Below are positions 27,036 to 57,692 of a stretch of 64,000 bases of DNA, piece after piece. Origin of the DNA: Sycon ciliatum (Eukaryota; Porifera; Calcarea; Leucosolenida; Sycettidae); contig NC_088650.1 of assembly GCF_964019385.1 (NCBI RefSeq), positions 26,499,266-26,563,265 of the forward strand, given 5' to 3'. The first letter of the stretch is position 1. Each line of letters starts with the position of its first letter. A model generated the notes under the pieces. That model was not told where the DNA came from. It was given only the letters and a program-made list of their open reading frames with translations, and did not search any database. A program made the position numbers and the translations under genes.

Positions 27036-27503
27036 CAGGGAGTAGTACAATACCGGTATTGTACTACTCCCTGGTTTACATGAGAAATTTCAACCCGGGT
27101 CGAGTTCAGCCCGGGTTGAAAGTCTGTACGACAGACAAAAGAGGTGAGCGTTTACATGAAGACAGTTGACCCGGGTCAAATACTGATATGCCGCCAAAAG
27201 TCCACTTCTACAGTCCTGTATGGTCACGTGAATCCGTTCGCGCGAAATTTGCATCTGCAGTGCTGTTCAAACCTGGCGCGAGATACGCACAGAAGTACGT
27301 TTGTACGATTTTCTTGACCCGGGTTGATTTCAACCCTCCCCTTGGGGGGAGGGTTGAAATCAACCCGGGGCGAAATTTCAACCCGGGTCAAGCGCAATGC
27401 GTCATGTAAACGCGCCATTCACTTTGTGCACATGGCGGGTTGAAATCTGACCCGGGTCGAACTCAACCCGGGTTGAAACGCTTCATGTAAACACAGCCTT
27501 AGA
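27036..27503. mobile_element. 468-bp MITE rich in CCCGGG palindromes, inside LINE 5 ORF1
   Basis: It is flanked by the 7-bp repeat CTTACAT (27029-27035 and 27504-27510). The first 38 bp (27036-27073) is a perfect palindrome with no loop. The remainder (27074-27502) has its own inverted ends (GTTTACATGA...TCATGTAAAC) and many (TTCAA)CCCGGGTT motifs, including a long internal foldback at about 27315-27372. It looks like one micro-element inserted at the end of another. Confidence 0.7.
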
Positions 27504-27504
27504 C

Positions 27505-27760
27505 TTACATGTAGGTCAGCAATTTCCCGCCTGAGTTGTTGAATCTCAAGTTTCAAGGACGCAATTTCATCGTCTCTGCCCCCCGTTGTCGCCATCATCT
27601 CCTTGTTTAAATCCATTATTGTGGTGGACAATGAGGCTAAGGCAGTCGTTATATCTCCTATATTATCCTGCAAAGTATTTTGTAGGTGCGTGACTACTAC
27701 GTCATGTACTACAATTGGTACATGACTTAATAATAGCCGTTTGGCATGGTACAATAACCT
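27505..27760 (-). pseudogene. LINE 5 ORF1, N-terminal coiled coil
   Basis: Minus-strand frame with VTHLQNTLQDNIGDITTALA then TTIMDLNKEMM and DEIASLKLEIQQLRREIADL, a clear heptad coiled coil as in LINE ORF1 proteins. It breaks off at the MITE at 27503. The start codon is not fixed; a run of Lys codons upstream comes from an A-rich tract. Confidence 0.6.
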
Positions 27761-27799
27761 TTTTTTCTTTTTTTCTTTTTTTTTCAATGGCTTATTTAT

Positions 27800-28300
27800 T
27801 CGAAGAGAATTGGTGAGCACACATGCTCATTCCCTGGGCACTGCAAATTCACAACTCATTTCACTGCAAATTCACAACTCATTTCATTTCACAGAATCAT
27901 TTTCAACGTTTCGGCAAATTGCCATCATCAAGATACAATATGAAGTGGAAGTCTGCCAAGGAGCAGTTATATACACTAATTTGGTGTTCTTAGGTGTTGA
28001 TAATATTTCTATGACTACATATGTTACCTCAGTGCTAGAAATATGATATGTCTAATAATAATAATAATAATTCGCGGGATTCGCGTTGGCATCGCTTGAA
28101 TGTTCAGAAACACACAAACTAGCCTTCGCTTCCGCAGGCCACCACTATGCCTATGCCTTGCACACCTGAGTGGCGAATGCAGACCTCACAAGTGAGTCAG
28201 GGGAGAGTAGGTGAGTCTCTCAACCAATCGGGCGTGTAACGGCCCATAACCCTGTAAACTGACTGCATCCTTGTTACCCTCACTCCGAGCTGTGAGTACC
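27800..28300. other. No gene recognised
   Basis: Contains a short direct duplication (CTGCAAATTCACAACTCATT, twice near 27841-27880) and an (AAT)n strip at about 28051-28071. Confidence 0.4.
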
Positions 28301-28372
28301 CAGTTGACCGTGGGTGTCGGCGCAGTTCACCACGCACAAAGAGCGAACTGCGCCGACACCCACGGTCAACTG
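28301..28372. repeat. Perfect 28-bp inverted repeat with 16-nt loop
   Basis: Arms 28301-28328 and 28345-28372 are exact reverse complements and GC-rich (core GGGTGTCGGCGCAGTTC). This would form a very stable hairpin. No terminator context or gene is nearby, so it is best read as a minimal foldback element. Confidence 0.9.
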
Positions 28373-28952
28373 ATATGTCTAAAACTAGTGAAAGATCACA
28401 AGTTTTCACTGACTCATATGCTGGGTGTTGGTAGTTAGCACAGCGCAGATGTCACCAGATAACTTGAGAAATGTCTGAACAGGTTTCTCGCAAGCAATTC
28501 ACGAATGTGACCATGTCAGTGGTAGTACTGTTGTCTTCTTCTTTGGCGGACTTGCTTGTGCCTGGAAGACCTTGGCTGTCGGATGCACTGGGTTATAAAT
28601 CGCGGAATCAAGTTTTCCCTCCGGCATTGTAGCAGAAATGACAACTGACACTCGCTCCTTTTGCGCTTGCTACAATTTACGGGCCCATAAAAAATAAAAA
28701 TCCAATCTGAAGAGCAATGTCAATAAAGCCGCTCATAACGCTAAAAATCAAATCAATTCAGGAAAATTCAATTCAATTCAAAGTCGTGACACATCCGGTA
28801 AAAAACAGCAAGAAATAATATCTCGGTGCAAAAGAAGAAAAAGGAAATAAAAAGCCGCTTCATTTTAAAAAGGACCAAATGAAGAAAAGCAAAGAAATAC
28901 CCACATCAGCGCTAAATTGCACCTTAAATTATAAACAAAAACATCACGCATC

Positions 28953-29378
28953 TGTCATGACCGGGGAGTGGGCCAGACATACTATCAGGATTCTACAATT
29001 CCAGGTTCTTTACGGAAATATACCAGGAGTCCAGATACCCATTCCTCACCCTCACCACACAAGAAGACCAAAGCTTCACTCTAGAACCAAGTAGTTCCAA
29101 GCACGAACAACAGAGAAGCAAGAAGAACAACAACCACAACAACCACCTATCGAAGCAAAACATCGAGCTATATACTGCTACATGTATTATGTCCTAGTAG
29201 CGTGCAAGCTGAAGGAGCGAAGGGCGCGAGCAGCCAGCCAGCCAGCAAAGCATGAATAGTGATATGTTTCCCAACGCTATTCATAGACGAGACACATCGA
29301 CGCCACGGCAAACACTTGACAAAGATACATGTAGGAGCAGACGGAATACAATACAGATAGCAACACACGGACACGACA
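28953..29378 (-). repeat. 3' LTR of the gypsy-like element
   Basis: 426 bp, preceded on the minus strand by a purine-rich tract. Flanked on its left by CATC (28949-28952). Confidence 0.85.
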
Positions 29379-29811
29379 TATCCCCCGCCTACCAACATGT
29401 TACGTCCTCGTAACAGAAGAAAAGTAACGGCACTGAAAAAGAAAGCCAAACAATAAAACTCTTGAAAACTTGAAAAGGAGGAACCAACCTCTTCCGACCC
29501 AAGAACCAAAGAAAACATATGCGCCAGTCTTGCACAGACTCTCAGCCACAGCAGTGTTAGAAAAATAAGTTATGCCGTTACAACTACGTTCGAACAAGCT
29601 ATTGGTCAGCCTGCAGGGATTGCTTCTGTGTTACTATCATTATGAACTAATAAGACAAATCAAGACTAGACGGGTGACAAGACCAGAAACGTGTCCAGGA
29701 ACTGGTAACTGACCCGAACTAACTTCACTTGAAATCCGCGGCTCCCGTTTGCGTGTTGCCTTCATCTTGACTTCCTCGATGTACCTCCTCTCCAGCTCTG
29801 GCTACGTCCAG

Positions 29812-29970
29812 CAGTTTATCGTCATGCTCCGGGACGGGCGCGTTGGTGATGTTGACCAACCGCGGTCGCCAGGGTGCAGTTTATCGTCGTACCCAGGACG
29901 GGCGCGTTGGTGATGGTGACCAACCGCGGTCGCCAGGGTGCAGTTTATCGTCGTACCCAGGACGGGCTGC
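29812..29970. repeat. 64-65 bp tandem repeat, 2.5 copies, in the gypsy-like leader
   Basis: Units at 29812-29876 and 29877-29940 and a partial one to about 29970. Each full unit carries, on the minus strand, TGGCGACCGCG, one base different from the start of the primer-binding site. Confidence 0.9.
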
Positions 29971-30042
29971 GGTGTGGTGACGATGGCTATTGGCAGCGCT
30001 CCCTCTCGCTGCCGAGGGTTCGGAATGTTAGTGGCGCTGGAC

Positions 30043-30060
30043 ATCCTGGCGTGGTCGCCA
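30043..30060 (-). promoter_or_regulatory. Primer-binding site of the gypsy-like element
   Basis: Minus strand TGGCGACCACGCCAGG, two bases after the LTR end CATGACA. TGGCGACC is a common Ty3/gypsy primer-binding start. Confidence 0.65.
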
Positions 30061-30062
30061 AA

Positions 30063-30488
30063 TGTCATGACCGGGGAGTGGGCCAGACATACTATCAGGA
30101 TTCTACAATTCCAGGTTCTTTACGGAAATATACCAGGAGTCCAGATACCCATTCCTCACCCTCACCACACAAGAAGACCAAAGCTTCACTCTAGAACCAA
30201 GTAGTTCCAAGCACGAACAACAGAGAAGCAAGAAGAACAACAACCACAACAACCACCTATCGAAGCAAAACATCGAGCTATATACTGCTACATGTATTAT
30301 GTCCTAGTAGCGTGCAAGCTGAAGGAGCGAAGGGCGCGAGCAGCCAGCCAGCCAGCAAAGCATGAATAGTGATATGTTTCCCAACGCTATTCATAGACGA
30401 GACACATCGACGTCACGGCAAACACTTGACAAAGATACATGTAGGAGCAGACGGAATACAATACAGATAGCAACACACGGACACGACA
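30063..30488 (-). repeat. 5' LTR of the gypsy-like element
   Basis: 426 bp, near-identical to 28953-29378. Flanked on its right by CATC (30489-30492). Confidence 0.85.
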
Positions 30489-30539
30489 CATCCATTAGCA
30501 TTGAGGACACTGCCATTAGCGAGGTTATACACACCACTG

Positions 30540-31919
30540 TTACATCCGTCCCTCAGCCATGGCTAGTGGGCGCAATGCATTTACCGGTCGATGGTATGCA
30601 GAGCGAGCCCCTCTGATGCACTTAACTGCAGCTCGGAGGAGTGCAAACGACAGACGGCATCTGACATAGGCCATAACCTCGCCGTAGGGCTTGCCATCAT
30701 GCTGTGCCAGCATAGCGCATAATCGCTTCAAAAACCGCAAGCATTCTGGGGATGCACTGCCAGCCGTGGTAAAGACAAGCGGGGTAAAGTTACCACGGTC
30801 AACATTGACAATCCTTTCGCTATACTGCAGCTTCTTCTGCCTCTCGTGCTGGAGAAGGAGGTCAGCGATGGGCTTCTTTGCGTACGAGGCGGCGTCAGGA
30901 TGAAAGACTCGAATGTCAAGGAAAGTGTTCTGTGCCCTTGTCCAAAACCCACGTATGCGGACGTCAGATCGGGCATCATGTGCCGTGTTGGTGCTGGCAG
31001 CTCTGAAGACTTCGCCCTCCAGCGGCGCGAGCAATGGCTCCACAGACACGTCAGGGCACACCTCCGTGACTAAGTCCGCTATCATGTCTCGTACCTCATT
31101 ATGTCTAATGGTAGGGAAGCCCCCGGTTGGGCAGCACATCGCATGAGCCGCGGTGAAATCCTGGCCACACACGCATTTCTCCTGGACATCCCTCAGAGGC
31201 CATCCGCACCTCAGCGCAATGGCATCGCGGAAGTCGCACTTGGACAGACTGAAGCCGTGCTCACGCAGCGGAAGGGTGTGGAGCCAGCTCGATACACCCT
31301 TGGCCGAAAGGTGTTCCAACTGGCGGGCGGCAAGCGGAGTAAGTGTTTCCTTGGCGCTCATATACCGCTGTTCGTCATGTTTTAGCCGTTCCGCCAGAGC
31401 TGCTGACTTGGCTCGCTGGGCTGAATGAATTGCATGCTCTATCGATATCGAGGGCCTGGACCGGTCATTCTGGTCGAGTATCTCCAGCGTTTGATCTGAT
31501 GTGATTTTCCTCGACGTCTCCAGAGCCCCATTAGCCATTTGAGACAGGGATGGCACGGTAAAGCCACCCAGGCGTGTGGGAAGCTGAAGAACAGCCCATT
31601 CGTTGTCCGAAAATGCCTCCCTGCCAGTTACCGCAGGTATCAATACCGTGCGCATCATGTCATCCATCTGAGAGAGGCAATCGGCTGGAAAAGGTACTGT
31701 TCTGAGGAGGTAGGTCCACCGGCCGCGAAGACCATGTGTCAGGGCAGCATAGGCTGCATGCGGTTCCGTGCGCGCAACATCCGATAGTGCCTTTAGTTCC
31801 GCAATCCACTCGCCTACTCGCCGCCGCACATGCTCGGCAACAGCATCAGACTCGCCAATGTAGGAGCCTAGGTATTTCGTGGCGCCGGTCACGATACGTA
31901 TGCCAGTACCAGCAAACAT
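30540..31919 (-). pseudogene. R2-like LINE, post-RT region and restriction-like endonuclease
   Basis: 459 codons, uninterrupted. It starts just after the RT domain (TKYLGSYIG; RRRVGEWIAEL; HAAYAALTHGL). The C-terminal part has a zinc-like CVCGQDFTAAHAMCC motif, then GGFPTIRHNEVRDMI, then DVRIRGFW and FLDIRVFHP. That is the CCHC / RHN / PD-(D/E)xK order of restriction-like endonucleases in R2-type non-LTR elements. The protein would cleave a target site and prime reverse transcription there. The RT half is missing here but is found at 40159-40690, broken at the matching codon. It is followed at 30540 by a stop 50 bp from the gypsy-like element. Confidence 0.8.
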
Positions 31920-31921
31920 AT

Positions 31922-32917
31922 AGACTAGTCAGGGAGCCGACCTTCAAAAAAGTGGCGCTCCAGGTCGGGCGAGATGGAGTACAAGATCTCTTCAGCAATG
32001 GGTTATGGGTCTATCAGAGAAGGGCTTTCGAGTTCTTGGCCATCCCAAAGCTGTGCACGGACATCGCGAGGACGCATTTTGTTCGACGATCAAATTCACA
32101 ATTGTCAAGCATTTAGGCGCAAATGTTTTTCGTTCTCAGCCGACTTCTCGGTTTGAGAAGTAGGTGCGCACGCTCAAAATTCCAAATCAGTGACTATGCG
32201 CCTGTCCAGAAGATGACGACGCTGCAAGCTTACTTTCTCAAAGCGTGACATACATTTTCATTACGATTTTGACTTCGAAAGTGAGAATAGTATTGCCATC
32301 GTCAGGTCCACTAGTCACGAAGCATAGCGCTTCTGGACAAAAGCGCAACATAGAGTGTGTACCAGCAATAGTGCACAATAATACTCGCGCCTACTCCGGC
32401 AATTCTGCAACGCGTGCCAGCAAAGTTTCAAAAGTATATTTCCAGGTCTGACTGAGGTCGAGTCGAGCGAAGATTCCGGCAGAGTAGGCGAGATGTTGCT
32501 TGCTGACAAGTCGGCCTCCGCGTCGGCCTCCGCGTCCCTGAGTCCTGACTGCCAGTGCCACAGCTGTATGCACCAGTGACCAGTCACCGGACGTGCAAGA
32601 TCATCATCACCCATGTCGGTACTCTGCCTGGCCTATTTATCTGCTGGTGGTGTCAACTCCGTTGCAGTTTGCCAGCTTGTTTGTTCCGGTACTCGTTCTT
32701 CACTGGTTCAGGTGAGCCCAGCTGCTTTTGCACAAAATACTTTGTGGATCCTGTGAGAGATCATGTAACTCGAAAACGAGACGTTGTTTGAAACAAAGGT
32801 AGAATGACAATCACTGCCAGTTCCACATGCACTTCTGACAGGAACTACGACAGACGTCTACGTGGCAGCACCAAAGGAGAGCATGGGATAGGCAACATAA
32901 CAAGATAGAACATACAT
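31922..32917. other. No gene recognised
   Basis: Left part of the 8.2 kb block that separates the two R2-like pieces. Short frames only; a small direct repeat GTCGGCCTCCGCGTCGGCC lies near 32511. Confidence 0.4.
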
Positions 32918-33850
32918 GCGCGCACGTGCATGTGTGCGAGCTTGTGTACACGCGCGCACGCCCACACACGCTTGCAAGCGTGTACTCACATGTGTGCGAG
33001 TGTGCATGAGTGCACACACACGCACACACATGTGACTCTCTGTTCGCACACACACACACATACATGTGTGCGAACATGCGCGCATTCATCACACACGCGT
33101 GCGCACATACACACAGGTGGATGCGCACATGCCAATGCTCACACACACACGCATACACGTGTACATGTGCACGCACACACACGCGTGCGCGCTTGCACGC
33201 ACATACACACAGGTGGATGCGCACGTGAAAATGCTCACACACACATACACGCATACACATGTACATGTGCACGACACACACGCGCGCGCGCACACACAGG
33301 TGGATGCGCGCACATGCATGTGTGCGAGCTTGTGTACACGCGCGCACGCCCACACACGCGCGCAAGCGTGTACTCACATGTGTGCGAGTGTGCATGAGTG
33401 CACACACACGCACACACACACACACACACACATGTGACTCTCTGTTCGCACACACACACACATACATGTGTGCGAACATGCGCGCATTCAACACACACGC
33501 GTGCGCACATACACACAGGTGGATGCGCACATGCCAATGCTCACACACGCATACACGTGTACATGTGCACGCACACACACGCGTGCGCGCTTGCACGCAC
33601 ATACACACAGGTGGATGCGCACATGCAAATGCTCACACACACATACACGGATACACATGTACATGTGCACGACACACACGCGCGCGCACACACAGGTGGA
33701 TGCGCACATGCAAATGCTCACACACACACGCGCATACACGTGTACATGTGCACGACACACGCGCGCGCGCGCGCACACACACACGTGGATGCGCACATGC
33801 AGATGCTCACACGCATACATACATATAAACACACACACTCATGCACGCGC
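32918..33850. repeat. CA/CG-rich minisatellite with higher-order repeats
   Basis: Alternating purine-pyrimidine sequence. A module containing AGGTGGATGCGCACATG recurs at about 33115, 33211, 33299, 33517, 33610, 33694 and 33784 (spacing about 84-96 bp, with one 218-bp step). A larger block starting GCATGTGTGCGAGCTTGTG is duplicated at about 32928 and 33313 (385 bp apart). It opens long His-Thr and Cys-Val frames that are not genes. The alternating pattern favours Z-DNA. Confidence 0.95.
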
Positions 33851-35231: not shown

Positions 35232-36612
35232 CAAAATTGAGTCATTCGCATGAAAATGTCTGTTTACGTCAGCGAAACCCGCTGATTTTCCCCATTTTTC
35301 AAGCGCTGAATGGCGCAAAAACTGTGAAATCACGGCAACGAAATAGTGTTCGACGAGCGAACAAACCTCCTTGCACCGGCATTGGTGCACAGCTTCGGGA
35401 CGGCCAAGTTCTCAAATCGTCCTCTAGAGACCCTTACCTACCTCTGTGCGAAGTTTCAAGTCCTCCCTCTGAAGTGGCATACCCCGAAAATAAAAAGCAT
35501 CCTACAGATTTCAGCTCCCGGACTAGACACGTTGTCTACGTAGCTACGTAAGTTTCTACGTAAGATGCTCGGTACCTGGTCCTGGACCAGGGAGCTACTC
35601 CATGGCTCCTACCATCGCGCGGCCGGCTGGCCGCATGCGTGTGCATTGCAGACTTTTTGTTGTTGCCTTTTCGGATGTGCATGCACGAGGAACTTCCTTC
35701 TTTGGAACTGCTTCTTGCATGAGCTGTTTCGGATAGTTCGTCTCCTGGCCTGGCTTATTTCGTTTCGGCGCTGCTGAGACCTCCTTTCGCGGAATATTAC
35801 TCAATGACAGGTGAGTTGACCAGTTCACTTTGATTCATTTGCTTGTGTTGACTCTTTCATTTACGAAAAGTGTGCTGATTTTGGGCGGAATGAAATAAAT
35901 AATGGAAAAGCTGACAGGATCTCCTTTCTAAATTTAGCTTTTCCGCTGCCGAGGCCTCCTTTTACGGAATACTCAATGACAGGTGATCTCTGAGTTGACC
36001 AGTTTCCTTCGATTCATTTGCTTATGCTCACCCTTTCATTTACGGAAACGTGTGCTGATTTTATTCGGATTTAGACTCCATTTTTATCTCTTTGCCCTTG
36101 CCTACAGTGTGCGAAGAACGCGAGTTCACCTTCTTGACGGTAAGGCTTATGTTAGATGTGTTGTCGAAATACTCATATCCATTGCACATTAGTACGTTAC
36201 AAGTAAGGCACTGGTCAGTGGCATACTATCGTTGGCAGTTCCCAATCTGGAGGGAAAGGTTCAAGGTCTCATTGACCGAGTTTGCCAAATAAATTCGCAT
36301 ATCAAGGAAAATCTCCATTGTGGAGAGGTTCAGTAACTTGTTTGCTTCATGCGAAACGAGCCAATGGGTGCAGTCTCGTGAAAATCTCGTACTTGTATGA
36401 TTGCATTTGTTTACTCGAGTCTTGGCTTTTTGATTTGTGAGTACCGCCGAGATTGCACTGCCCCAAATAAAGTTTCGTGCCGCCAATGCAAGAATTACGA
36501 TCTGCAATCTGTTTGTAGTACCTGTAGTACCTGCAAGAATGTGCAGTCCGTGTATCGTACTTTCTCTGTTGCTGTTTCAGTTGCTGTCATGTTGCTAAAG
36601 AAAGGTTCAGTA

Positions 36613-36889
36613 GAGAGGTTCTGCAAAACGAAAATTCGAACGAAGTTTCGCGACAGTCCTTGCGAAAGTGTGTACGAATTTTTGCACGAACTTTGCGTTC
36701 TGCACATTTTCGTAGTTTGCGCGGGCCAAGTGCACGTAGGTCATGATCCGATCTCACGAAATTCCTACGACAGTTCATATCGTGTTCCCTGCAAGTTTCG
36801 CTTCCAAAGTTGCGAAAGTTCGTGCGAAGTTTCGCACCTCCTGTTGTAGAGGGAAAGTTTGTACGCATTTTCGTTTTGCAGAACCTCTC
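36613..36889. mobile_element. 277-bp MITE with TA target duplication
   Basis: Ends GAGAGGTTCTGCAAAACGAA and its inverse, flanked by TA. The inside is rich in TTCGTGCGAA/CGAAAGT motifs. The same MITE lies at the matching place in the right copy (58621-58898), so it was present before the duplication. TA duplication fits Tc1/mariner-type mobilisation. Confidence 0.8.
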
Positions 36890-37088
36890 TAGTGACTCTT
36901 TTGTTTGATACGAGACGAGTCAATGAGTCGGTGTGGCTTAGAATCTTTCGCTGTAGAATAAATCTATTCGTATGTCTATTTGAGAAATAATTGTATTCAG
37001 TGGTTATAAAATAGGTTAAGACAAACTCACAGAATAAATACCATCGGTCCCTTGGTGTTCGTCCTAAAGAGGTTCGACTGGATATCAT

Positions 37089-38080
37089 CAAGAGTCCATA
37101 ACCCCCCAGAGTGTGCAACTCGTGATCCTTCTCAGCACAAATCAGTGCCGCAACGAAATCCAAACTTCATACGTCATGTAGTGAGTAGCTATGACGAAAT
37201 GGGAAGTTTGGCCCGGACCTACTTCGCCCGTTTGCCCAATTTGGGGTCTTTCTTTACGAATCCACGGTCAGGTATTGTACGTAACACGCCTGGAAAGGCT
37301 CAAGTACACAAAGAATTATTTTAGAGTTGTCGAACAGTTTTCTCTTTTGAGTGTCTCTCCGATAAGAGAAGAACAATGGCCACTGTTGAACCTAAAGCAA
37401 AGCGCTCCCCATTGTCGCCGGAGTGCAGTGTCTCTGTGGACGATATTCGTCAGTTTTTGTTCGATCTGGGCTCCTCATTTTCTTCTCTCGATTGTCGAGT
37501 GTTGGAAATTGTTAATTCTTCCAGCACCTGGATAGAGATTTATTGCTCGAAGTCTGTGCTTCTCACATGCAATGGAACACCCGTCAATTTGAACCGTCTG
37601 GTTGTGAACCCAGCAGGAACATTCACTGCAGGTTGAAGCACATCTACTTCGAAATCGATCGGGTCTTCATGCCGTGTGCCAAGAGCTATTTCCATCAAAT
37701 CTTGTAAATCTATATCCATGCCTATTCTTGCTATCCCGGAGTCACGAACTCTCCCAATACAAGCTTTTCAGACAACGAGCAGAGAAACTCTCTTCAAATA
37801 AAAAAATTCTGTGACTGTGAAATCAAAGCCGTTCTGCTGACACTGCATGCAGCATAGCCCGTGCGCGTGCAGCAAACGTTTTACGTGACACTTCCGTGGC
37901 TTGCTTCAAAGCAACCTTCAACTAAGTTACTTGGAACCCCCGCCGGATGTACCAGATATGCACATGGGGATATGGCCCCATCCGCCCATGCTTGCCCGGG
38001 GACCGGATGACGCAATGTTTGGATTTCGTTGCGCCAGACCCCAACCTGGAGTTGCACACTCTGGGGGGTTATGGACTCTT
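37089..38080. mobile_element. 992-bp DNA element with 8-bp target duplication
   Basis: About 31-bp inverted ends starting CAAGAGTCCATAACCCCCC. Perfect 8-bp flanks GATATCAT (37081-37088, 38081-38088). The right duplication copy has one uninterrupted GATATCAT at the matching site (about 58426), so this is a clean insertion. An 86-codon frame at 37376-37636 is not recognisable. hAT-like by target size; non-autonomous. Confidence 0.88.
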
Positions 38081-38778
38081 GATATCATTCATACTCACCA
38101 AAAGATGTGTAAGATTTTATTATCATGGAGTGCCTTGTTTATCTCTCAGTATCAGTACCTCCAACCATAGCCTTGACCCTTTTATCCTCAGGATCAGTGT
38201 AGTTGTTGGAACGAGGTGTCGGACTCAGCAATGTATTTGTTTACATTTTAATACATGTTTATTGTTCCTCCTTTGCTGTGTTTGAAGAAGGGCTGAGGCT
38301 TCCTGCAGCTTCATCTGTGAAAAGAATTCGGGTGGACACACCCATTCCCATAGCGCTGTGTTGTTTTAGAAAATCGTGGACTAACAGTTTGAAGTCATTG
38401 AACTACTTCCAAAAGTTGTATCGACATCAACAGGATTACGATTTCAGTGCAATATGATGGTGGATGACCTTATCACGATAACCCATGATTATAAACCAAT
38501 ATAAACACAGAATCAACAAAAACATCTGCGACACGCACCTGGCGCATGGCTACATTTCTCAAACGAATCTGATCGAGGGTGGGGAAATCTGAAATATCTG
38601 AAAGGCACGACTCATGCATAACCTTCCTAGGGGGCTCCCGTAAGAAGACCATAGATCTGTGGGAAACACCCTAGTAAAAAAAAAAAAAAATTCACGGTTC
38701 GCGTGAGACTCGGCTGGAAGCCGGGCTTTCCGCATCCGTAGGAACGCCACCACCCTTCAAGGATCAAGGCGCAGCCAA

Positions 38779-39171
38779 GGGCGCGTTTGGTTGGTACGAA
38801 CTAGAACAGGATTCACTAGAACAGCGCGTTTGGTTGGGACTGCACCTGTTCTGGGTCGGCCAGAACATGTTCTGCTTGCTCCGGCCTCGAGGCCGGAGCA
38901 GACCGAGCAGTTTCACTTTTTCACAGTGAAACCTGGCGGGAACATCGATTTTGGTCCCAGATGATCACGTGCATACGCTTTTGGGTTGGATTCGTCGTAC
39001 CGTACAAAGTGACCATGGTGACCCATACACATTTTTGAAGAATGCACCATTTTGGCACATTTTCTCACAAAAATGTGCTCTGTTTCTGGAGTACCGTTTG
39101 GTTGGCATGAGGCTGCTCCATGTGCACCAGCTGTTCGATCCTGTTCTAGATCGTACCAACCAAACGCACCC
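38779..39171. mobile_element. 393-bp MITE with GGGYGCGTTTGGTTGG ends
   Basis: Left end GGGCGCGTTTGGTTGGTACG and right end its inverse with few changes, continuing about 34 bp (to CTAGAACAGGAT). It lies in a 0.6 kb block absent from the right duplication copy. An AAT-rich tail follows at 39176-39205, which may be a LINE 3' end. Ends of this type are known in PIF/Harbinger-like and other MITEs; no clear target duplication is seen. Confidence 0.75.
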
Positions 39172-39373
39172 CTAGTAAAATAAAAGTAAATAATAATAAT
39201 AAGACAAATGAAATTCTGCAACAGCAACATGCACAGAGTGAACTCCGTATAAAAAAGTATAACCACCACTACTCACATGTTCACCTGCAGGAGAACATGC
39301 ATTATCATGCCAGTGCCATTTTCTGCCAGAAAAGGCTTGCACATCAATGCGTATAATACGGTATTGATATGAT

Positions 39374-39601
39374 CAAGAGTCCATAACCCCCCAGAGTGTG
39401 CAACTCGTGATCCTTCTCAGCACAAATCAGTGCCGCAACGAAATCCAAACTTCATACGTCATGTAGTGAGTAGCGGATGTACCAGATATGCACATGGCCC
39501 CATCCGCCCATGCTTGACTATGGACCGGATGACGCAATGTTTGGATTTCGTTGCGCCAGACCCCAGCCTCAGTTGCACACTCTGGGGGGTTATGGACTCT
39601 T
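39374..39601. mobile_element. 228-bp deletion derivative of the 992-bp element
   Basis: The same inverted ends as 37089-38080 and the same inner flanks, but lacking about 750 bp of the interior. Perfect 8-bp flanks GATATGAT (39366-39373, 39602-39609). Confidence 0.88.
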
Positions 39602-39609
39602 GATATGAT

Positions 39610-39629
39610 CAAGAGTGCATAAACCTCTT
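39610..39629. mobile_element. 20-bp residue of the same element family
   Basis: CAAGAGTGCATAAACCTCTT lies between two copies of GATATGAT (39602-39609, 39630-39637). Only the extreme ends of the terminal repeats remain. Confidence 0.6.
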
Positions 39630-39672
39630 GATATGATGTGAAGGCCATCATTTACATAATTATTGATACCGG

Positions 39673-39705
39673 CAAGAGTACATAACCCCGGGGTTATGTA
39701 CTCTT
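39673..39705. mobile_element. 33-bp palindrome: two abutting terminal repeats only
   Basis: CAAGAGTACATAACCCC joined directly to its inverse, ending CTCTT. The flanks GATACCGG and GATATAGG match at 6 of 8 positions, as an aged target duplication would. Confidence 0.65.
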
Positions 39706-39750
39706 GATATAGGGCATTCCATTGATTGGTGACAGAAAAAACAAAAGAAA

Positions 39751-40157
39751 TTATAGCAATAAAAACTGCTTTATGGCAGTTTTCTAAAAAAGGTTATTGT
39801 GTTCTAGTCCATGGACCCCGTCCAAAAAGTAAGAAATTACCGAAATGTGATAGCTGAAAATTAAAATTTCACACAAAACCTCACAATAATCACACACAGA
39901 ATTAAAAGCTACATGTAGAAGACCTTTTCCCCTCGTGATCCTCTTTCCTATGCATGCATGTTGCCAATTGTTGGTGCAGTACAAGTTAAAGTTGAAAGCA
40001 GCATTTCAAGTGTTGTGATTATTGTGAGGTTTTGGGTGAAATTTTAATTTTCAGCTATCACATTTCGGTAATTTCTTACTTTTTGGACGGGGTCCATGGA
40101 CTAGAACACAATAACCTTTTTTAGAAAACTGCCATAAAGCAGTTTTTATTGCTATAA
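39751..40157. mobile_element. 407-bp foldback MITE (left duplication copy)
   Basis: Long inverted arms of about 120 bp, starting TTATAGCAATAAAAACTGC. A near-identical copy is at 56433-56840. Its right end is exactly where the R2-like RT frame at 40159 breaks off. Confidence 0.85.
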
Positions 40158-40158
40158 T

Positions 40159-41952: not shown

Positions 41953-43016
41953 ATGAGAGCATTGACAGTTGCGAGAATGCGGAAAACTGCCACCATTCTT
42001 TGTGTACTGTTGGTAGTGATGGTGGTTGATGCAAGGGCCACTACATCCAGCGATGTTAGTACCTCCGCAGTATCAAACCAGTCCAATGATTGTATGCAAG
42101 CCTTCTTCCAACAGGCTGGAGTACGCAGTTCACATGTCACTCAGTACGTTGCTAATTTCCGACAAAATGGCGTCGGACCAGAGGTTCTGTTTGACTTGAG
42201 GTTTGTGGACTTGGCCAAGACACGTTTAGCATTACGTATGCAGGTGATACGTTCGGCATCCATACTTGTATCACTGGTCGAGGTCGGTGTGTGGTGCAGC
42301 CTTTCTGCCATAACGAGGGGACTTGTGTCTATAGTGAAGTCACACGTCAACACCATTGCAAGTGCAAGCACAAGTATACCGGACCAAGATGTTCCAAGAA
42401 AGTCGAGAATCCCGTGGAGGAGCTGAGACGGAAGGTAAAACAAATGTCTGTTGTGCTAGCCAATGTTGGTGTGTCGTATACCCGCTGGGGAAGGAACTCC
42501 TGTAATTCCTCTTCGGGAGCAGAACTTGTTTATCCTGGACAAATGGCTGGATCGTTGTACACACACACTGGAGGTGGATCCAATTACATCTGTTTACCAC
42601 TGAATCCACAGTATGACAAATACAGGAGTGGAGCTCAGGGCCACAGTTACCTTTATGGTACCGAGTTGGAAACCGGTGGTTATTTTTCACCGTTTGGCAG
42701 TCTTCAAGATCAGAACCCTTCCTGTGCTGTATGTCACGTGGCGGGAAGATCATCCCAGATCATGATTCCTGGTCACATGACCTGTCCGCCATCATGGAGT
42801 CGGGAATACCATGGTTACCTGATGAGCGGGAGCCATGGTCAAAAGGGCCGCACGGAGTATATCTGTGTTGATGGCAATCCTGATGTGTTGCGCGGCCAGA
42901 GCGCGGACACGAATGGAGCTCTCCTGTACCCTGTCGAGGTCCACTGCGGCCATGGATTGGACTGTCCACCATTCGACAACAGCAAGGAATTGACATGTGT
43001 GGTTTGTTCCAGATAA
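41953..43016 (+). CDS. Secreted EGF plus short-chain collagen C4-type domain protein (left paralogue)
   Basis: Predicted exons 41953-42143 and 42230-43016 (325 residues), with an 86-bp intron GTACGT...TTTAG. The paralogue at 61855-62913 has GTATGT at the same place, and both joins keep phase. The N-terminus is a signal peptide (KTATILCVLLVVMVVDA). An EGF-like module follows (CVVQPFCHNEGTC...CKCKHKYTGPRC), then a short heptad helix (NPVEELRRKVKQM), then a domain with YTRWGRNSC, GGGSNYICLP, LYGTELET, CAVCHV, SQIMIPGHMTCP, EYHGYLM, TEYICVDGNPD, TNGALLYPVE and ELTCVVC. That domain is the C-terminal part of sponge short-chain collagen C4; no Gly-X-Y tract is present. It is likely extracellular. 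The start is the Met before the hydrophobic run; a second Met lies 8 codons on. Confidence 0.75.
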
Positions 43017-43997
43017 TTGGTAATGTCGAAAGTTCGTCAAAAATTTGGCAATCGCCGTACAGGAATCTAGCTAACACCCTCCCTAGCTATTAGTCTTCCT
43101 GTACAATGTACATGTACATGACTGATTGTACTTAGTGGCAAAGTGTGCATGCGACTAGACAGGGGGGTATGCGACTAGAGAGGTAACAAACTACATGTAC
43201 TAACAACAGCTGTTTGCTTGTTCGCAAAATGCTCAAAACACACTTAGTAGTCTAGAGGCACTGGCACTCCCATATTCCATTTCCAAACATGCAGCTAGTT
43301 ACTTCACGATCCTTTATCTTGGCTCTTGTTGTGTTCACCAAAGTACAGTCACACCTTTGTCGATTGCCGCTTCTCCACGGGGCCCGTCTAACACCCTGTT
43401 ACGTGTGCCATAGGAGTATTACGAGGAATGCTCCGTTCTATCTCACGAATCATCTTTTGTTAGCTCATGCAAGTCTGCATACATGTACTACTGATGTTGC
43501 ATCGTTAACCCATATACTAGTACCCACTTTCAGGTGTACCAGTAGCATTTGTATTTTTGTGTTGTAGTTTATTGCTATACTTGGGTATTCCGAACAGACC
43601 CTAAGGTCTTCTAACAGGGTGCCCAGGGTGGTGTGAAGTATATTGCATACAGTGCAGCTGCTTATCTCGTTAGTGTTCCACCAAGTGTTTCAATACACTG
43701 TACATGTACTGTACTGTATAACCTGGCTGACATTATCAAAAAATATTGAAAGACATCAGAATATCTTTCCAGGTACTATTATAGTTTCTAAGTAGCCATC
43801 TTCTTCATGAAAGCACATGGATTCCGTACAACTGCATGCTCTATAAATTACTGGTACGGAAAATTCATAAATATATTTGTATCAGGAATCATTCAATTGC
43901 TCGGCGTAAAATAAGGGTTAACAACAGCAACAAGGACATGAACAGCAGCATAGACCTCCACAACAGCAACAATTTTATTATTATTATTATTATTATT
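43017..43997. other. No gene recognised
   Basis: Downstream of the C4-like gene. TACATGTACATG palindromes at about 43105 and 43703; an (ATT)n strip at about 43976-43996 abuts the next inverted-repeat element. Confidence 0.45.
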
Positions 43998-46640: not shown

Positions 46641-46644
46641 ATCA

Positions 46645-46790: not shown

Positions 46791-46794
46791 TGAA

Positions 46795-51845: not shown

Positions 51846-52021
51846 ATATTCGTCGTATTATGTATACGACTCCCTGATGTAGAGGAAGATTTGGAAAAAA
51901 ATAGGGAGACGAAGAGGAAATTAAATTAGAATAGACGCCGATTAGGTCATAGGATGCGTCAGCATAAACATACTTTGGAAGAGAGATCCCGTCGTCTCCA
52001 AAAGAAGCGTGAACGATCGAT

Positions 52022-52265
52022 TCAGTGCCGGTCACAGGAATCGTCGGAAGAGAGATCCCGTCGACTCCAGAACGCCCGTGATCGGTAGAGTCCGGCGGTA
52101 CCAGGCAACGTCAGGACAGACATCCCTTTGAGTCCAGAACGCCCGTGATCGGCAGAGTCTAAGCCGATCCCAGGAAACGTCAGGACAGACATCTCGTCGA
52201 GTCCAGAACGCCCGTGATCGGCAGAGTCAGCGCCGGTCCCAGTAAACGTCAGGACAGACATCCCG
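52022..52265. repeat. ~63-65 bp tandem repeat, about 4 copies
   Basis: Each unit has TCCAGAACGCCCGTGATCGG, then AGAGTC, a variable middle, then CGTCAGGACAGACATC. It has the even spacing of a minisatellite and varies in the middle. It is not a CRISPR array: the units abut, without unique spacers. Confidence 0.88.
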
Positions 52266-52520
52266 TCGACGCGCAGAAAAACTAAATCTGCAGCCTCTTT
52301 TGCCGTCGAACAGGATACGTTTTTATATAGGAGACTGTAAATTTATGTAATGTCCAAATTTCGACGTGAGCAGCAGGTCACTCGCGTTGATTTTTCGACG
52401 TGCGAGCCAAATAACGCGAGCTAAACTTTCGCGTCGCAGACATCCCGTCGACGCGCAGAAAAACTAAATCTGCAGCCTCTTTTGCCGTCGGACAGGATAC
52501 GTATTTTAGGAGACTGTAAA
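52256..52520. repeat. Direct duplication of an ~80-bp segment
   Basis: GACATCCCGTCGACGCGCAG and the following ~60 bp (to GACAGGATACGT) occur at about 52256-52320 and again at about 52438-52502, with one A/G change. The first copy is joined to the last tandem unit. Confidence 0.85.
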
Positions 52521-53160
52521 GTTATGTGATGTGCTCCACAGGCAACCATGCATTCGGCGTCGTCATTGGCTCAACAGGTCAATGCACATGTATTACTACA
52601 AAAAGGCCAGAAAATCCGATCACTGTATTAAAATCAACTAATGTTCGCTGGCGATTTAATTTCGCTGATTTCGCCGCTTGGTACCAACCGGCCAAAGTAA
52701 ATCGCAGGCCAACGTTTGTCATATAGGCAAATGATGCATGATTGAGCAATGGATGCATGTGAGAGCAAAAATACCGATCGATTTCAAATTTGACGTGAAA
52801 CTGCGCGTCACGTCGGAAATAACGTGCATCTTAACCTCTCTAATAGAGAGGTTTCTATTTCTCATCGGCCAAAATTTGTTGATTTACAATATAAGGAGAT
52901 AAAAAGAAAAGAAGGAGCAAAACAAAAGTAGATGATTATTAGAGAAATAACAATCCGCAATAAATTCTGCAAATACTTTTGCCTAACTCATAAGCAAACC
53001 GATTGAAACGTTTTTGCAATACAGTGATGTGGCCAATCAACGAAAAAGACATTCCCATCAGTTCTTATAACATGTACGATGAGCTAGGCAAAAATGCATA
53101 AAAGCATAGCGCAGGGCCCTGAGCTTCCAAGCTCTCTCGTTAATTATAACATTTTTTAAA
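52521..53160. other. No gene recognised
   Basis: A 66-codon plus frame at 52526-52726 has no motif. AT-rich to 53160. Confidence 0.4.
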
Positions 53161-54456
53161 TTTTAGAATTGCGATCAACAGAACGAGCTGAACCGACATT
53201 TCACAAAGGCTTTTATTGTATTAAAAAAAACGAGTGGATACGAAGGCAGTGAAGAACATGGAAGAAAGAAAAAATGTGATATGGAGAAAATGATGAACAA
53301 AAAATCGTACTTCGAACTAGTTTTCGCACAACACTCCTCAGGAAGCTACGTTGTACATTATCCCACGTAGCGCACAACTGGAGCGTCCCACGCGGGGAAG
53401 ACCCCGTAAACAACCACTACCTCCGCCAACACAGGACCTAGCGTCCCACTCGGCAAGTCCACCATTGGCTCCCGTGGCCATGACCAAGTCACTCCTTCCA
53501 CCAGCGGAGGTGGATGTGGCTTTGGCGACGCCACGTGTGCTGCATGCAGACACGTTTGCGTCATCATCGCTTGCTGCATCACCGGCAGAGACGACAACAA
53601 TACCTACCTCAATATCAACGAGACCCAGAAGAACAACTGCGAATTACACCATGACCTATTTCAGTACGGAAGTACAGAGCCAACGGAATGCACAACAGGA
53701 GCGTGAGACGAGGGATGGGAGGAGACGGGACCTGATTGCTCCAAGGCAGGACGTCGTTGAGGAGGATTCGGCCAGTGAGTCCAGTGAGTCCGGTGAGTGT
53801 GAGAGCGAGAATGATTGTGTGAGTAAGAGTGGGTGCGAGCGTGTGTTTTCTAGTAGGAAGTCATCAGTGTATAAGCATCTTGTATCTCGTCCTGATTGCT
53901 GCAAGGCGTATTCTGATTCTTCTTTTTCTGTTTTGTGCCGTGCTCGTCATGGTTATAAGTTGCAGTTGAGTGTGTTAGAAGCTGTTTGTCAACGTATTCA
54001 TAAGCCTAATCTGTGTGTCCAGAAGGACAGCATTATTCGTTTGAAATTGTTCTAGTAGCCGCTTGTTCTGTCTGTTTGGCCCAGGTTGGCCATGGTGTCA
54101 TCTTGTGTCACAGTATACTAGTAGTCTTTACTAGTTCGTTTTAAAGTGCTTTCGCAGTTTTTCCTGTTATTACCTTAGTGCTAGGATTATCATTTTCATA
54201 GGTGTTGTTTCTTCTCACTCCATTTCTCTTTATTAGTATCTTTCTGGATTGTTTTTCATTAGTACAACGTAGCTTCCTGAGGAGTGTTGTGCGAAAACTA
54301 GTTCGAAGTACGATTTTTTGTTCATCATTTTCTCCATATCACATTTTTTCTTTCTTCCATGTTCTTCACTGCCTTCGTATCCACTCGTTTTTTTAATACA
54401 ATAAAAGCCTTTGTGAAATGTCGGTTCAGCTCGTTCTGTTGATCGCAATTCTAAAA
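53161..54456 (+). mobile_element. 1.3 kb inverted-repeat element carrying an AT-hook and GIY-YIG-like ORF
   Basis: Arms 53161-53356 and 54262-54456 (about 195 bp, near-perfect), starting TTTTAGAATTGCGATCAACA. The ORF at 53351-54055 begins inside the left arm. Its 3' UTR includes the right arm. The same layout as 43998-45122, but the arm sequences are unrelated. Confidence 0.75.
53351..54055 (+). CDS. AT-hook protein with partial GIY-YIG-like C-terminus
   Basis: 234 codons, uninterrupted. An AT-hook lies near residue 14 (RPTRGRPRKQP). A Ser/Thr/Pro-rich and then acidic middle follows (EEDSASESSESGECESEND). The end has RKSSVYKHLVSRPDCC, YSDSSFSVLCRARHG, LSVLEAVCQRIHKPNLC and IRLKLF, close in pattern to the ORF at 44279-44777. 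It resembles the second half of a GIY-YIG nuclease, with Glu in LEAV, but the GIY and YIG strands are absent, so nuclease activity is doubtful. The first Met lies in the terminal repeat. It could be an exon of a larger former protein. Confidence 0.5.
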   Translation: MYIIPRSAQLERPTRGRPRKQPLPPPTQDLASHSASPPLAPVAMTKSLLPPAEVDVALATPRVLHADTFASSSLAASPAETTTIPTSISTRPRRTTANYTMTYFSTEVQSQRNAQQERETRDGRRRDLIAPRQDVVEEDSASESSESGECESENDCVSKSGCERVFSSRKSSVYKHLVSRPDCCKAYSDSSFSVLCRARHGYKLQLSVLEAVCQRIHKPNLCVQKDSIIRLKLF

Positions 54457-54496
54457 CTATTGTCGCCTCGACGCCTATTTACATATTTTTTTAAAT

Positions 54497-54641
54497 GGTT
54501 GATAAATATGGTGGTAAAGACACACCTGGCAATATGGCGGTAAACACACGCCTGCCCACACACGCTCTCTAGGCTGCAAAGTTCTGGCACAGAGCTCTCC
54601 TTCTCACCACCACCACCATCAGTTCGCGCCTGGCGCCTAGA
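54497..54641. repeat. Inverted partial copy of the 12930-13553 repeat unit
   Basis: Matches 13030-13165 and 13385-13515 on the opposite strand (CTAGGCTGCAAAGTTCTGGC and GTTCGCGCCTGGCGCC). It shows the unit is dispersed as well as tandem. Confidence 0.8.
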
Positions 54642-54802
54642 TAAAATTTAAAAGAAAGGAACCAAAATATTATAAAATTATTAAAATCCTTGGCTCTCCA
54701 TCCGGATATCCGAAGTCGGCGAAATGCTTAGTACAAGCATTGTCATTGTAGTCGGAGAAAGGACACTCACCCACTGTGGTCATTCGCTGAAAACATCGAA
54801 GT

Positions 54803-56232
54803 GTGCGCTTGTTGAGCATTGTTCCAGCATGGGCACGGTTTTGTACCAGTCCACGGCAACAGAACATCGTAGCGGCAGACATCATCAACCAAAGCGTCGC
54901 AGAGGGTGCCGACATGTCATCGTTCATCGGACTTGGCACACTGATTCCTTTACAAAAACCAAAAAAACCTAGAGGACCCGTGACTAGCCTGCGTCCCATT
55001 GTCCTCCTGAACACCATCCGAAAAGTTTTCTCCCTTGTAGTGCTCTGCCGAATCGCAAAGGACGTTGCTCGTTATGTTGGTCCAACTCAATCTGGCTTCA
55101 GACAAGGCCGAAGTACAACAGATGTGGTATGGGCACACAGCGATGGATTGCGGCCAAGGCGACTCGATGCAACTGGGAATGCCACATGCTGGGGATTGAC
55201 ATGTCCCGTGCGTTCGACACGATCGATCGCACCAAACTGTTAGACGTCATGGCATTAGTGACTGGCCCCGATGAAGTGCGCATGATCCAGCACCTACTGT
55301 TCCACACACAAATATCAGTGAAAGTAGGAAAGGCAACTGCCAATCCGTTTCTCAGCACCATCGGCACCCCCCAGGGAGATGGCTTGAGCCCTGTTCTTTT
55401 TATTTGTTACCTGGAGGCAGCACTACGCCAAGTGAGAGCAAACCTTCCCGAACGCCCTTTCGCCGACCGTCACATACCCGGAGAAACAGGTTACGCCGAT
55501 GATGTGACATTGTACTCAACCAGTGAGGAGTGGCTGAAGCGAAGCCTCCCCATCATTAGCGCAGAACTCGGGGATTGGTCCCTTACAGTAAACGAGACCA
55601 AGACCGAATTCTTGCATCTGACATCAACTTCAGACTCCTGGCGGTCCAGCAGGCAGCTAGGGTCCCTCATTGGCGACAGTGAGGACCTGGAGCGGAGGAA
55701 AGACCTCGCTTCGAGTGCATACGGCAGGATGTATAGCCTCTGGCTGAGGCGTGGGAAGGTCAGTGAGCAGAGGCGCATCCGCCTGTATAATGCCCTGGTT
55801 CTGCCCGTTATTTTGTATAACTGCGGCGCATGGGGGCTCACGGCAGCACAAGCAGAATCGCTTAACGTTTTCCACCGGAAGCAGCTCCGACGGCTCATTG
55901 GCATAGTCTACCCAGCCAGGATATCAAATACTGAGCTGTATGAGAGGTGCAACACGGAACCACTATCTGACATCGTGGACAGGAGAAGATGGCAGCTAAC
56001 CGGCCATATTCTCCGTATGGACAGGGATGCGCCGCCATGGATCGCGCTGACGGGCTATTTTGCGGGAGATACCAAGGCTGGGCGTGGACGTCCAAGGACA
56101 TCCATTGCGACGCGCATCACAAGCGACTTACAGAGGAGGAACATCGACTTGAAGCGCAGCAGTCAGCTGGGGAATGTGAGGGCCATCGCTCTGGACAAGC
56201 CTACATGGAGAAATCTGGCCGACAATCCATGA
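54803..56232 (+). pseudogene. RTE-like LINE 8: reverse transcriptase and C-terminal domain
   Basis: First frame: LIPLQKPKKPRGPVTSLRPI, VLLNTIRKVFS, GPTQSGFRQGRSTTDVVWAH. A one-base shift near 55138 leads into the second frame (to 56232): LGIDMSRAFDTIDRTKLL, GTPQGDGLSPVLFICYLEAA, catalytic GYADDVTLYS, then PVILYNCGAWGLT, RRLIGIVYP, RRRWQLTGHILRMD. The PLQKPGKP and QGDGLSP patterns and the C-terminal block are RTE-like. It is the only LINE RT in the window on the plus strand. The 5' part, including the endonuclease, is missing or unreadable before 54803. Confidence 0.82.
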
Positions 56233-56432
56233 TCTGGCGTCACAGGTCATCAGTGCGCCGTGTTAATAATTACCTTGATAATGGAATTTGATCATAGGAG
56301 ATAGGACAGAAGCGGAACGTATAATTATACCCACATAATTATATTATTACGCGTGCTGTGGTATTATTATTATTACGGCAACAGAATGTCACCACAGTCA
56401 TGTGCAATGATTATGTACAAATACTAAGTACA

Positions 56433-56840
56433 TTATAGCAATAAAAACTGCTTTATGGCAGTTTTCTAAAAACAGTTATTGTGTTCTAGTCCATGGACCC
56501 CGTCTAAAAAGTAAGAAATTAACGAAATGTGATAGCTGAAAATTAAAATTTCACACAAAACCTCACAATAATCACAACACTTGAAATGCTGCTTTCAACA
56601 CTAAACTTGTACTGCACCGACAATTGGCAACATGCATGCATAGGAAAGAGGATCACGAGGGGAAAAGGTCTTCTACATGTAGCTTTTCATTCAGTGTGTG
56701 ATTATTGTGAGGTTTTGTGTGAAATTTTAATTTTCAGCTATCACATTTCGTTAATTTCTTACTTTTTAGACGGGGTCCATGGACTAGAACACAATAACTG
56801 TTTTTAGAAAACTGCCATAAAGCAGTTTTTATTGCTATAA
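56433..56840. mobile_element. 408-bp foldback MITE (right duplication copy)
   Basis: Same element as 39751-40157, with arms of about 120 bp starting TTATAGCAATAAAAACTGC. Its right flank (TTTCTTTTGTTTT...GGAATGC) is the inverse of the left flank of the other copy. Its left flank is unrelated, so this end marks the limit of the duplication. Confidence 0.85.
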
Positions 56841-56954
56841 TTTCTTTTGTTTTTTTTCTGTCACCAATCAATGGAATGCTCTTTATTGCATGTCACGTGA
56901 GGGTTGCCTGTACTACAGCCAATGAGCGCTCTTGCTCAGCGGTCTGTATTTCTC

Positions 56955-57175
56955 GGTATTGCAAGTTATTGCCCGCTCAGTTACATGTACGCGCATGCGG
57001 ACTGTCATTCTTGTACTTTGTGGTTCGTGATCAGATCAAGTTAGTTGCTACAGTTCGGAGTTTCAAATTTGAAACACAAAACAGCAACTAACTTGATCTG
57101 ACTACAAACTACAAAGCAAGAGAATGACAGACCACACGCGCGCGCATGTAACTGAGCTGACAATAACTTACTTGT
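56955..57175. mobile_element. Foldback with ~100-bp imperfect arms
   Basis: GATCAGATCAAGTTAGTTGC and its surroundings are mirrored by GCAACTAACTTGATCTGA on the right. Outward, both arms have ACATG(T/C)GCGCGC-type and CTCAGTTACATG blocks. It is absent from the left duplication copy, so it is a candidate insertion. Confidence 0.75.
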
Positions 57176-57508
57176 TCCAGCCACCTGAACCAGCCGCCTC
57201 AGCAGGTGAATGCAACCTTGACATCGATATCGATGCGTTGATGAGCAGCCGACGAACTTGACGAACTGAATGCGTTTGTGGAGCCCATCCCAGTTTCAGT
57301 TCCTGTTCCTACACGCAGTGCTCAATCACGAACAACAACACCATCGATATCGTAAAGAAATAGAGAATTTCAAAACCACAGACGACGTTTACCACTGAAC
57401 AAGTGTGTCGGGAGATAGAGAAAGTCGGAAAGGTTTCTCTCCATTTTCTGGAATGTTTGGGTCAAGCATGCAATAAATGATTCACTGCGCCTCGTACGCA
57501 CTCGTACA

Positions 57509-57576
57509 TGGGCAATACCGGCTGATACATGACCTCACGGCTGGCGCCGTTCGGTCATGTATCAGCCGGTATTGCC
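57509..57576. repeat. 25-bp perfect inverted repeat, 18-nt loop
   Basis: GGGCAATACCGGCTGATACA plus TGACC pairs exactly with GGTCA plus TGTATCAGCCGGTATTGCCC. Absent from the left duplication copy. Confidence 0.88.
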
Positions 57577-57658
57577 CTTGTACATGTACTCGTTTGTACT
57601 CGTGCAGTAAATCATACGTATCAATATGTAAATGATGGCCTTCACATCATTTCAATAG

Positions 57659-57692
57659 CAGGGAGCCCTACACATACGTGTAGGGCTCCCTG
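57659..57692. mobile_element. 34-bp palindrome, CAGGG...CCCTG
   Basis: CAGGGAGCCCTACAC, 4-nt centre, then its inverse. Flanks TTCAATAG and ATCAATAC match at 6 of 8. In the left duplication copy the matching place holds a different set of insertions. Confidence 0.65.

Follow-up and report, generated by a model that had tools for sequence, protein, structure and literature searches.

Three short palindromes in a stretch of DNA from the calcareous sponge Sycon ciliatum raise the question of whether sequences made of almost nothing but two abutting terminal repeats are transposons that can still move or traces that larger transposons left behind. The stretch, referred to below as the window, comprises 64,000 nucleotides (nt) of contig NC_088650.1 (C9:26499266-26563265) in a genome of 538 Mb. 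A preliminary description had regarded the palindromes as hAT-type elements reduced to their ends, and had wavered between a mobile element of 33 base pairs (bp) and a scar of hairpin-mediated internal collapse. Another explanation is, in our judgment, very probable: the palindromes would be repair scars left by the excision of P-superfamily elements, whose transposase cuts about 18 to 19 nt inside the element ends, and not hAT micro-transposons. Repair after such staggered excision would replace both of the earlier options; rare mobility of a scar may still occur.

The three palindromes turned out to lie where they had been reported, with small corrections to the second, and none of them is assigned to a strand. 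The first, of the CAGGGAGTAG class (27036..27073), is a perfect palindrome of 38 bp, that is, of two 19-nt arms, flanked by TCTTACAT (27028-27035) and GTTTACAT (27074-27081), which agree at 6 of 8 positions; its sequence is also the commonest CAGGGAGTAG micro-palindrome (13 of 39 among the matches listed). The second, of the CAAGAG class, is a perfect palindrome of 34 bp (39673..39706, 17 + 17) and not of 33 bp, with ATACCGG (39666-39672) and ATATAGG (39707-39713) as its target site duplication (TSD), matching at 5 of 7 or 6 of 8 positions. The third, of the CAGGGAGCCC class (57659..57692), has 15-bp arms and a 4-nt centre, 34 bp in all, between TTCAATAG (57651-57658) and ATCAATAC (57693-57700), again with 6 of 8 matches. 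A residue near the second palindrome, reported as 20 bp long, is present as a 21-bp CAAGAG scar, CAAGAGTGCATAAACCTCTTG (39610..39630, no strand), between two copies of ATATGAT. Flanking 8-bp repeats with 6 of 8 matches were thus found as described at 27036 and 57659, while the CAAGAG duplication at 39673 is better read as 7 bp. Since about 1.7% of random window positions also reach a flank identity of at least 6 of 8 at the exact offset, the window flanks taken alone are no more than suggestive.

Perfect palindromes with arms of at least 15 bp and a spacer of at most 4 numbered four in the window (27036-27073, 39673-39706, 57659-57692, and 27318-27369) and none in 100 dinucleotide-preserving shuffles. 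Two longer hairpins that, according to the preliminary description, might belong to the same process showed no clear membership in it and were set aside. The one at 28301-28372 has a flank identity of 2 of 8; the other, given earlier as 57509-57576 and here as 57510-57577 (68 bp, 25-bp arms), has flanks matching at 7 of 8 positions in GTAC-rich surroundings, and both are devoid of the CA...TG family ends.

In the whole genome, the exact 17-nt CAAGAG end occurred 7,462 times and its reversed pattern 0 times. Micro-palindromes, defined for CAAGAG as convergent 11-nt ends 0 to 30 bp apart (22 to 52 bp in total), numbered 2,551, and those with CAGGG ends 643, against no reversed-pattern match in either case. 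These counts are of places and not of events, as the 34-bp CAAGAG scar of the window is present again in 27 of the 38 copies compared of a single dispersed repeat; the totals cover the whole genome, and the individually listed micro-palindromes all come from the first places on contig C1. Convergent CAAGAG ends 31 to 61 bp apart (53 to 83 bp) were found in 264 places (reversed pattern, 0), and 20 of the 26 lettered examples hold a further inner end of a terminal inverted repeat (TIR), mostly belonging to a second scar.

The TSDs were determined in 20 CAAGAG and 20 CAGGG loci, chosen from 50 listed loci of each and fetched with their flanks; an earlier CAAGAG set of 15 loci, 14 of them distinct, was kept apart. 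The 7-bp flanks matched at 6 or more of 7 positions in 14 of the 20 CAAGAG loci, compared with 7 of 380 swapped-flank controls, and in 10 of the 14 distinct loci of the earlier set. For CAGGG, the 8-bp flanks matched at 7 or more of 8 positions in 18 of 20 loci (controls, 5 of 380); the flanks are identical within the CAGGG pairs L130/L133 and L134/L147, each pair representing a single event that was duplicated. Taken as symmetric 8-mers, the CAAGAG flanks matched at no more than 3 of 8 positions in all 20 loci. An eighth matching base was present in just 8 of 16 perfect CAAGAG sites, and then only if the terminal G was counted as target, so that 7 fits all, and the TSD is best read as 7 bp beside symmetric CAAGAG...CTCTTG ends. 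Its consensus is RTNNNAY (25 sites, among them 9 taken manually from elements and paralogs), and that of the CAGGG TSD is GTNNNNAC (12 sites). Palindromes with flanking repeats are thus in excess genome-wide, as had been supposed, their TSDs lying far above the swapped-flank control.

Filled and empty sites were compared within the frame of two paralogous segments detected by self-comparison of the window, namely, A (35670..40158, forward strand) and B (56419..60629, inverted, reverse strand), which are 89 to 100% identical over the aligned blocks and represent a repeat dispersed in the genome. Copy B is an empty site for the 992-bp CAAGAG element described below, reading GGATATCATTC against GGATATCAT-CAAGAG...CTCTTG-ATATCATTC in copy A. 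The CAGGG palindrome of copy B stands as GGTATTGAT-(34 bp)-CTATTGAAATGATGTG, and four empty paralogs read GGTATTGATATGATGTG at the same site (57659-57692); the palindrome is a gain of 34 + 8 bp, the second TSD copy bearing two mismatches. A 144-bp query taken from this repeat returned 41 rows, comprising the window, one partial match (excluded), and 39 others, of which one was truncated where its contig ended, so that 38 paralogs remained. At the site of the 21-bp scar (39610), 25 of the 38 carry the scar, 6 a variant of it, 4 are empty, and 3 are disrupted otherwise; at the 34-bp palindrome (39673), 25 carry it, 2 more do so with an insertion or deletion, 4 are empty, and 7 are changed otherwise. 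The four paralogs without either CAAGAG scar show a single TSD copy, so sites lacking the palindromes do exist. A perfect ATATAGG/ATATAGG pair flanks the 34-bp palindrome in 8 of the 27 paralogs that have it; for this reason, the flank mismatches at 39673 are attributable to decay, with ATATAGG as the ancestral TSD and the ATACCGG of the window as its decayed copy. The 228-bp insertion in the left TSD of the 21-bp scar was seen in the window copy only (0 of the 38 fetched paralogs), and the order of events at this site is readable as an empty site, then the 21-bp scar, and then the 228-bp element entering the scar's own left TSD. Two further observations concern the same region. At L107, the DNA between the two scars is gone and the left scar is joined to the TSD of the right one, and an inverted-repeat element, GCGTTTGGTTGG...CCAACCAAACGC, lies at 38775-39175 of the window, with a similar sequence interrupting the 21-bp scar in L104.

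PF21787, the RNase H model of P transposases, gave 44 matches in the genome. One of the proteins matched belongs to an autonomous CAAGAG copy on C1 at 65.91 Mb (L069), an element of 5,920 bp that encodes a protein of 824 amino acids, has TIRs starting with CAAGAGTCCATAACCCCCCAGAGTGTGCAACTC, and is flanked by a perfect 7-bp TSD, GTCGAAT; this protein and that of L067 matched the model above the cut-off, at 6.7e-10 and 7.1e-12, respectively. The so-called 992-bp element of the window (37089..38081, forward strand; 993 bp with symmetric ends; TSD ATATCAT at 37082-37088 and 38082-38088) is an internal deletion derivative of the autonomous element, its positions 1-539 corresponding to 1-530 (97%) and 540-993 to 5518-5920 (84%). 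It retains an 86-amino-acid open reading frame (37376..37636, forward strand), a remnant of the N-terminus of the 824-amino-acid P-type transposase with a start nearly identical to that of the L069 protein. The so-called 228-bp element (39374..39602, forward strand; 229 bp; TSD ATATGAT), located on the older scar's left TSD, joins positions 1-101 and 5794-5920. Because both elements derive from the 5,920-bp P-type element, the size series of the window belongs, on sequence grounds, to the P superfamily. The TIRs, the TSD of the autonomous copy, and the RTNNNAY consensus agree with the 7- to 8-bp TSDs and the GT...AC preference of that superfamily. The palindromes had rightly been seen as composed of transposon ends, as bordered by decayed target duplications, and as grouped with these two elements, and it is the hAT origin proposed for the CAAGAG series that the 7-bp TSDs and the P-type transposase contradict. 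The CAAGAG TIR matches that of Drosophila P at 10 or 9 of 17 positions, depending on the subfamily (P = 0.003 to 0.012, uncorrected), and the first 13 nt of zebrafish Pdre2 match Drosophila P at just 4 of 13. A PDB sequence search with the CAAGAG transposase gave no match at E = 1, nor was the CAAGAG end found in the viral contigs searched.

We then determined where the palindrome arms stop. Of 100 CAAGAG arm ends (50 listed micro-palindromes, compared with the TIRs of three subfamilies), none reached nt 20, while 33 stopped at nt 17 to 19 and 67 earlier. Among the 39 listed CAGGGAGTAG micro-palindromes, 16 were 38 bp long, 13 of these being perfect 19 + 19 forms, and the other 52 arm ends did not extend beyond nt 20. 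A cleaner test used 20 of the listed places that had an exact CAGGG 19-mer with no exact partner adjoining. Five of them (L151-L154 and L164) continue with GGGAGGTGACACGG, or nearly so, and are the ends of longer elements; the remaining 15, which amount to 14 independent ones since L150 and L158 are duplicates, diverge from the parent at nt 20 (11 places), nt 21 (3 places), or nt 23 (1 place), and several of them are one-sided scars in which the other arm was trimmed. Arms of the CAGGGAGCCC class, whose parental element was not seen, reach 20 nt (11 listed). Among the 50 CAAGAG micro-palindromes listed, 47 differed from one another in sequence, which fits independent repair, as end joining predicts.

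From these stop positions, we infer that cleavage falls about 18 to 19 nt inward in the CAAGAG family and about 19 nt inward in the CAGGGAGTAG class. The transposase would sever one strand right at the border of the element and its partner about 18 to 19 nt farther in, each donor end would keep a 3' tail with the first TIR nucleotides, and the two identical tails would then be end-joined, with or without filler or trimming, to give TSD - TIR arm - (filler) - inverted TIR arm - TSD. Joining with hardly any loss or gain should yield a perfect palindrome of 34 or 38 bp, and other outcomes a shorter or one-sided remnant. This course of events accounts for the sizes observed, for arms that stop at about 17 to 19 nt, for fillers that vary, and for scars with only one side. 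What the DNA itself shows is how the palindromes are built, their TSDs and empty sites, the P-type parent of the CAAGAG family, and the positions at which the arms stop; the excision, the offset of the cut, the joining, and a like chemistry in the CAGGG families would follow from it.

Known P elements offer parallels. The P transposase cuts the 3' end at the element border and the 5' strand 17 nt inside, leaving 17-nt 3' TIR tails (PMC7776569), and the repair junctions of the fly P{wa} element read acccagac-CATGATGAAATAACATA-(filler)-TATGTTATTTCATCATG-acccagac (PMC2895639). In favor of such a course, the laboratory P{wa} scars of Drosophila have the same build as those described here (TSD, TIR arm, filler or none, inverted arm, TSD), with arms that are retained 3' overhangs and with templated fillers (PMC2895639). 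They differ in their 17-nt arms and 8-bp TSD, compared with arms of about 19 nt (20 in the CAGGGAGCCC class) and a CAAGAG TSD of 7 bp here, and they come from a reporter fly, whereas the sponge genome holds the same architecture at thousands of natural places. Galileo, of the P superfamily, resembles the sponge elements in its mostly 7-bp TSDs (consensus GTANTAC) and its incomplete copies but has long variable TIRs, and the word "footprint" is absent from the text cited (PMC4168063). The Anopheles gambiae P-MITEs (P-type miniature inverted-repeat transposable elements) are likewise nonautonomous and retain the ends and TSDs of P-type masters, but the TSDs are of 8 bp, and neither "palindrom" nor "footprint" occurs in the text cited (PMC1562414). 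Zebrafish Pdre2/THAP9 likewise represents the P superfamily beyond flies and has copies with internal deletions, but it differs in its 8-bp TSD and 13-bp TIR (PMC10983969). A partial literature survey, covering titles and the openings of abstracts, yielded no description of natural P-type palindromic scars on a genome-wide scale or of scars as landing sites.

The superfamily of the CAGGG elements is less clear. Strict CAGGG ends numbered 269, of which 37 pairs lay 2.1 to 4.9 kb apart in the part listed (contigs C1 to C4). The CAGGG length rule speaks for a chemistry like that of the CAAGAG family. At the candidate L059 (on C9), a CAGGGAGTCG end precedes, by about 1 kb, a P-type match with split reading frames.

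Several observations weigh against the excision reading or limit it. No site was found at which one copy holds the complete element and another copy the scar, and excision itself thus has the standing of a deduction. The 13 perfect 38-bp CAGGG forms match the parent to nt 21, their central CCGG coinciding with parental nt 18 to 21, and they therefore cannot separate a 19-nt cut from 21-nt tails annealed through CCGG; the 19-nt offset for CAGGG rests on the filled and one-sided scars. The CAAGAG offset is blurred by a poly-C run. None of the 37 paired CAGGG elements on C1 to C4 contained a PF21787 match, and a right end with the same TSD as the L059 end was not found on C9. The L069 and L067 proteins gave no Pfam match to the THAP domain at E = 0.001, a threshold that a divergent form may escape. 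Of the 26 lettered sequences of 53 to 83 bp, 2 keep subterminal sequence past nt 19, and longer one-sided remnants exist. Among fillers hand-picked for their presence, and thus not a random sample, 4 of 19 long CAAGAG fillers copy 8 to 16 nt of the arms and 0 of 12 CAGGG fillers are templated, and templated filler was consequently rejected as a general signature. Finally, one and the same micro-palindrome can be found at several sites, each with a TSD of its own; besides the 38-bp CAGGG form shared by 13 of the 39 listed loci, one 32-bp CAAGAG sequence is present at both L117 and L128, where the TSDs are perfect but differ from each other. Such identical forms are ambiguous, since both blunt or microhomology joining and mobility predict them.

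It is on these identical forms, and on the good TSDs at many sites, that the best-surviving alternative draws, according to which the palindromes of 34 to 38 bp are themselves recognized and moved as minimal nonautonomous elements. We consider it unlikely, as the CAAGAG micro-palindromes are so rarely alike, one-sided forms exist, and the arms end where a staggered cut would leave them; moreover, the P transposase of Drosophila binds additional sites inside the TIRs that the micro-palindromes are missing (PMC7776569). Interrupted gap repair, in which copying from the sister chromatid stops early and extreme internal deletion results without direct joining of overhangs, has in its favor the 992- and 228-bp derivatives, which show that internal deletion occurs, and the two sequences with subterminal remains. 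It would, however, give arms of any length, yet no CAAGAG arm end of the 22- to 52-bp class reaches nt 20, and the numbers drop tenfold above 52 bp, which makes this mechanism very improbable. Slightly less credible still are hAT elements reduced to their ends, as first proposed. The CAGGG ends with 8-bp TSDs of the form GTNNNNAC do accord with hAT, and hAT transposase matches abound in the genome (of 422 candidates, 150 were scored), but none of the 88 PF05699 (hAT) matches listed on C1 to C4 lies inside the 37 CAGGG pairs, and CAAGAG elements combine 7-bp TSDs with a transposase of the P type. For CAGGG, then, the TSD part of the hAT proposal stood and the transposase part was not supported. 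Excision of hAT elements leaves altered TSDs and is not known to leave 19-nt TIR arms, which also counts against this origin. Palindromes born by chance or in replication and unrelated to transposons, for which only the two longer hairpins with their unconvincing flanking repeats speak, can practically be dismissed given their absence from the shuffles and from the reversed-pattern matches, the family-specific TSD length, and the TIR sequence of element families in the CAAGAG and CAGGGAGTAG palindromes.

If the palindromes are excision scars, their arm lengths hint at the cut position of a transposase without biochemistry, and their junctions hint at how germline breaks were joined over evolutionary time. 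Scars of this kind would also explain short perfect palindromes otherwise mistaken for tiny transposons.

Some scars appear to be targets in their turn. Another TIR end lies 6 to 9 bp beyond the scar in 4 of 34 CAAGAG loci, and L044 reads TSD-scar-TSD-scar-TSD with differing fillers. Diverging CAAGAG ends 0 to 30 bp apart occur in 532 places genome-wide (reversed pattern, 9), and the spacer is exactly 7 bp in 26 of the first 50 listed. The tandem scars are most simply read as the outcome of several insertions into one TSD; copying during repair may be responsible instead. The tandem scars spaced by 7 bp, together with the 228-bp element on an old scar's TSD, suggest that scars are recurrent or preferred landing sites at the same 7-bp site. 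A stronger version, to which we give somewhat less than an even chance, is that scars act as self-perpetuating landing pads, their TIR arms guiding new insertions of their own family into the adjoining 7-bp TSD, with the result that runs of differing scars come to share a TSD. If this is true, an element that has left flags the spot for its successor, repeated insertion and excision at one site could turn transposon scars into short repeat arrays, and the scars preserve, across the whole genome, the cleavage offset of every family and the traces of end joining in the germ line.

A tandem array on C1 (5683500-5685100; L066) consists of units of about 44 bp that contain the CAAGAG TIR start plus subterminal sequence. 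This satellite, at 5.684 Mb, was rejected as an instance of a scar array, being built of TIR starts and not of scars.

Two features of the window lie apart from the palindromes. A match to the type I hammerhead ribozyme (13250-13293, 35.4 bits) is located at the junction of two direct repeat copies (12920-13177 and 13271-13529), part of which is also present at 54495-54638. A gene fragment with an EGF domain occurs as an inverted duplicate (90%) at 42061-43019 and 61852-62817.

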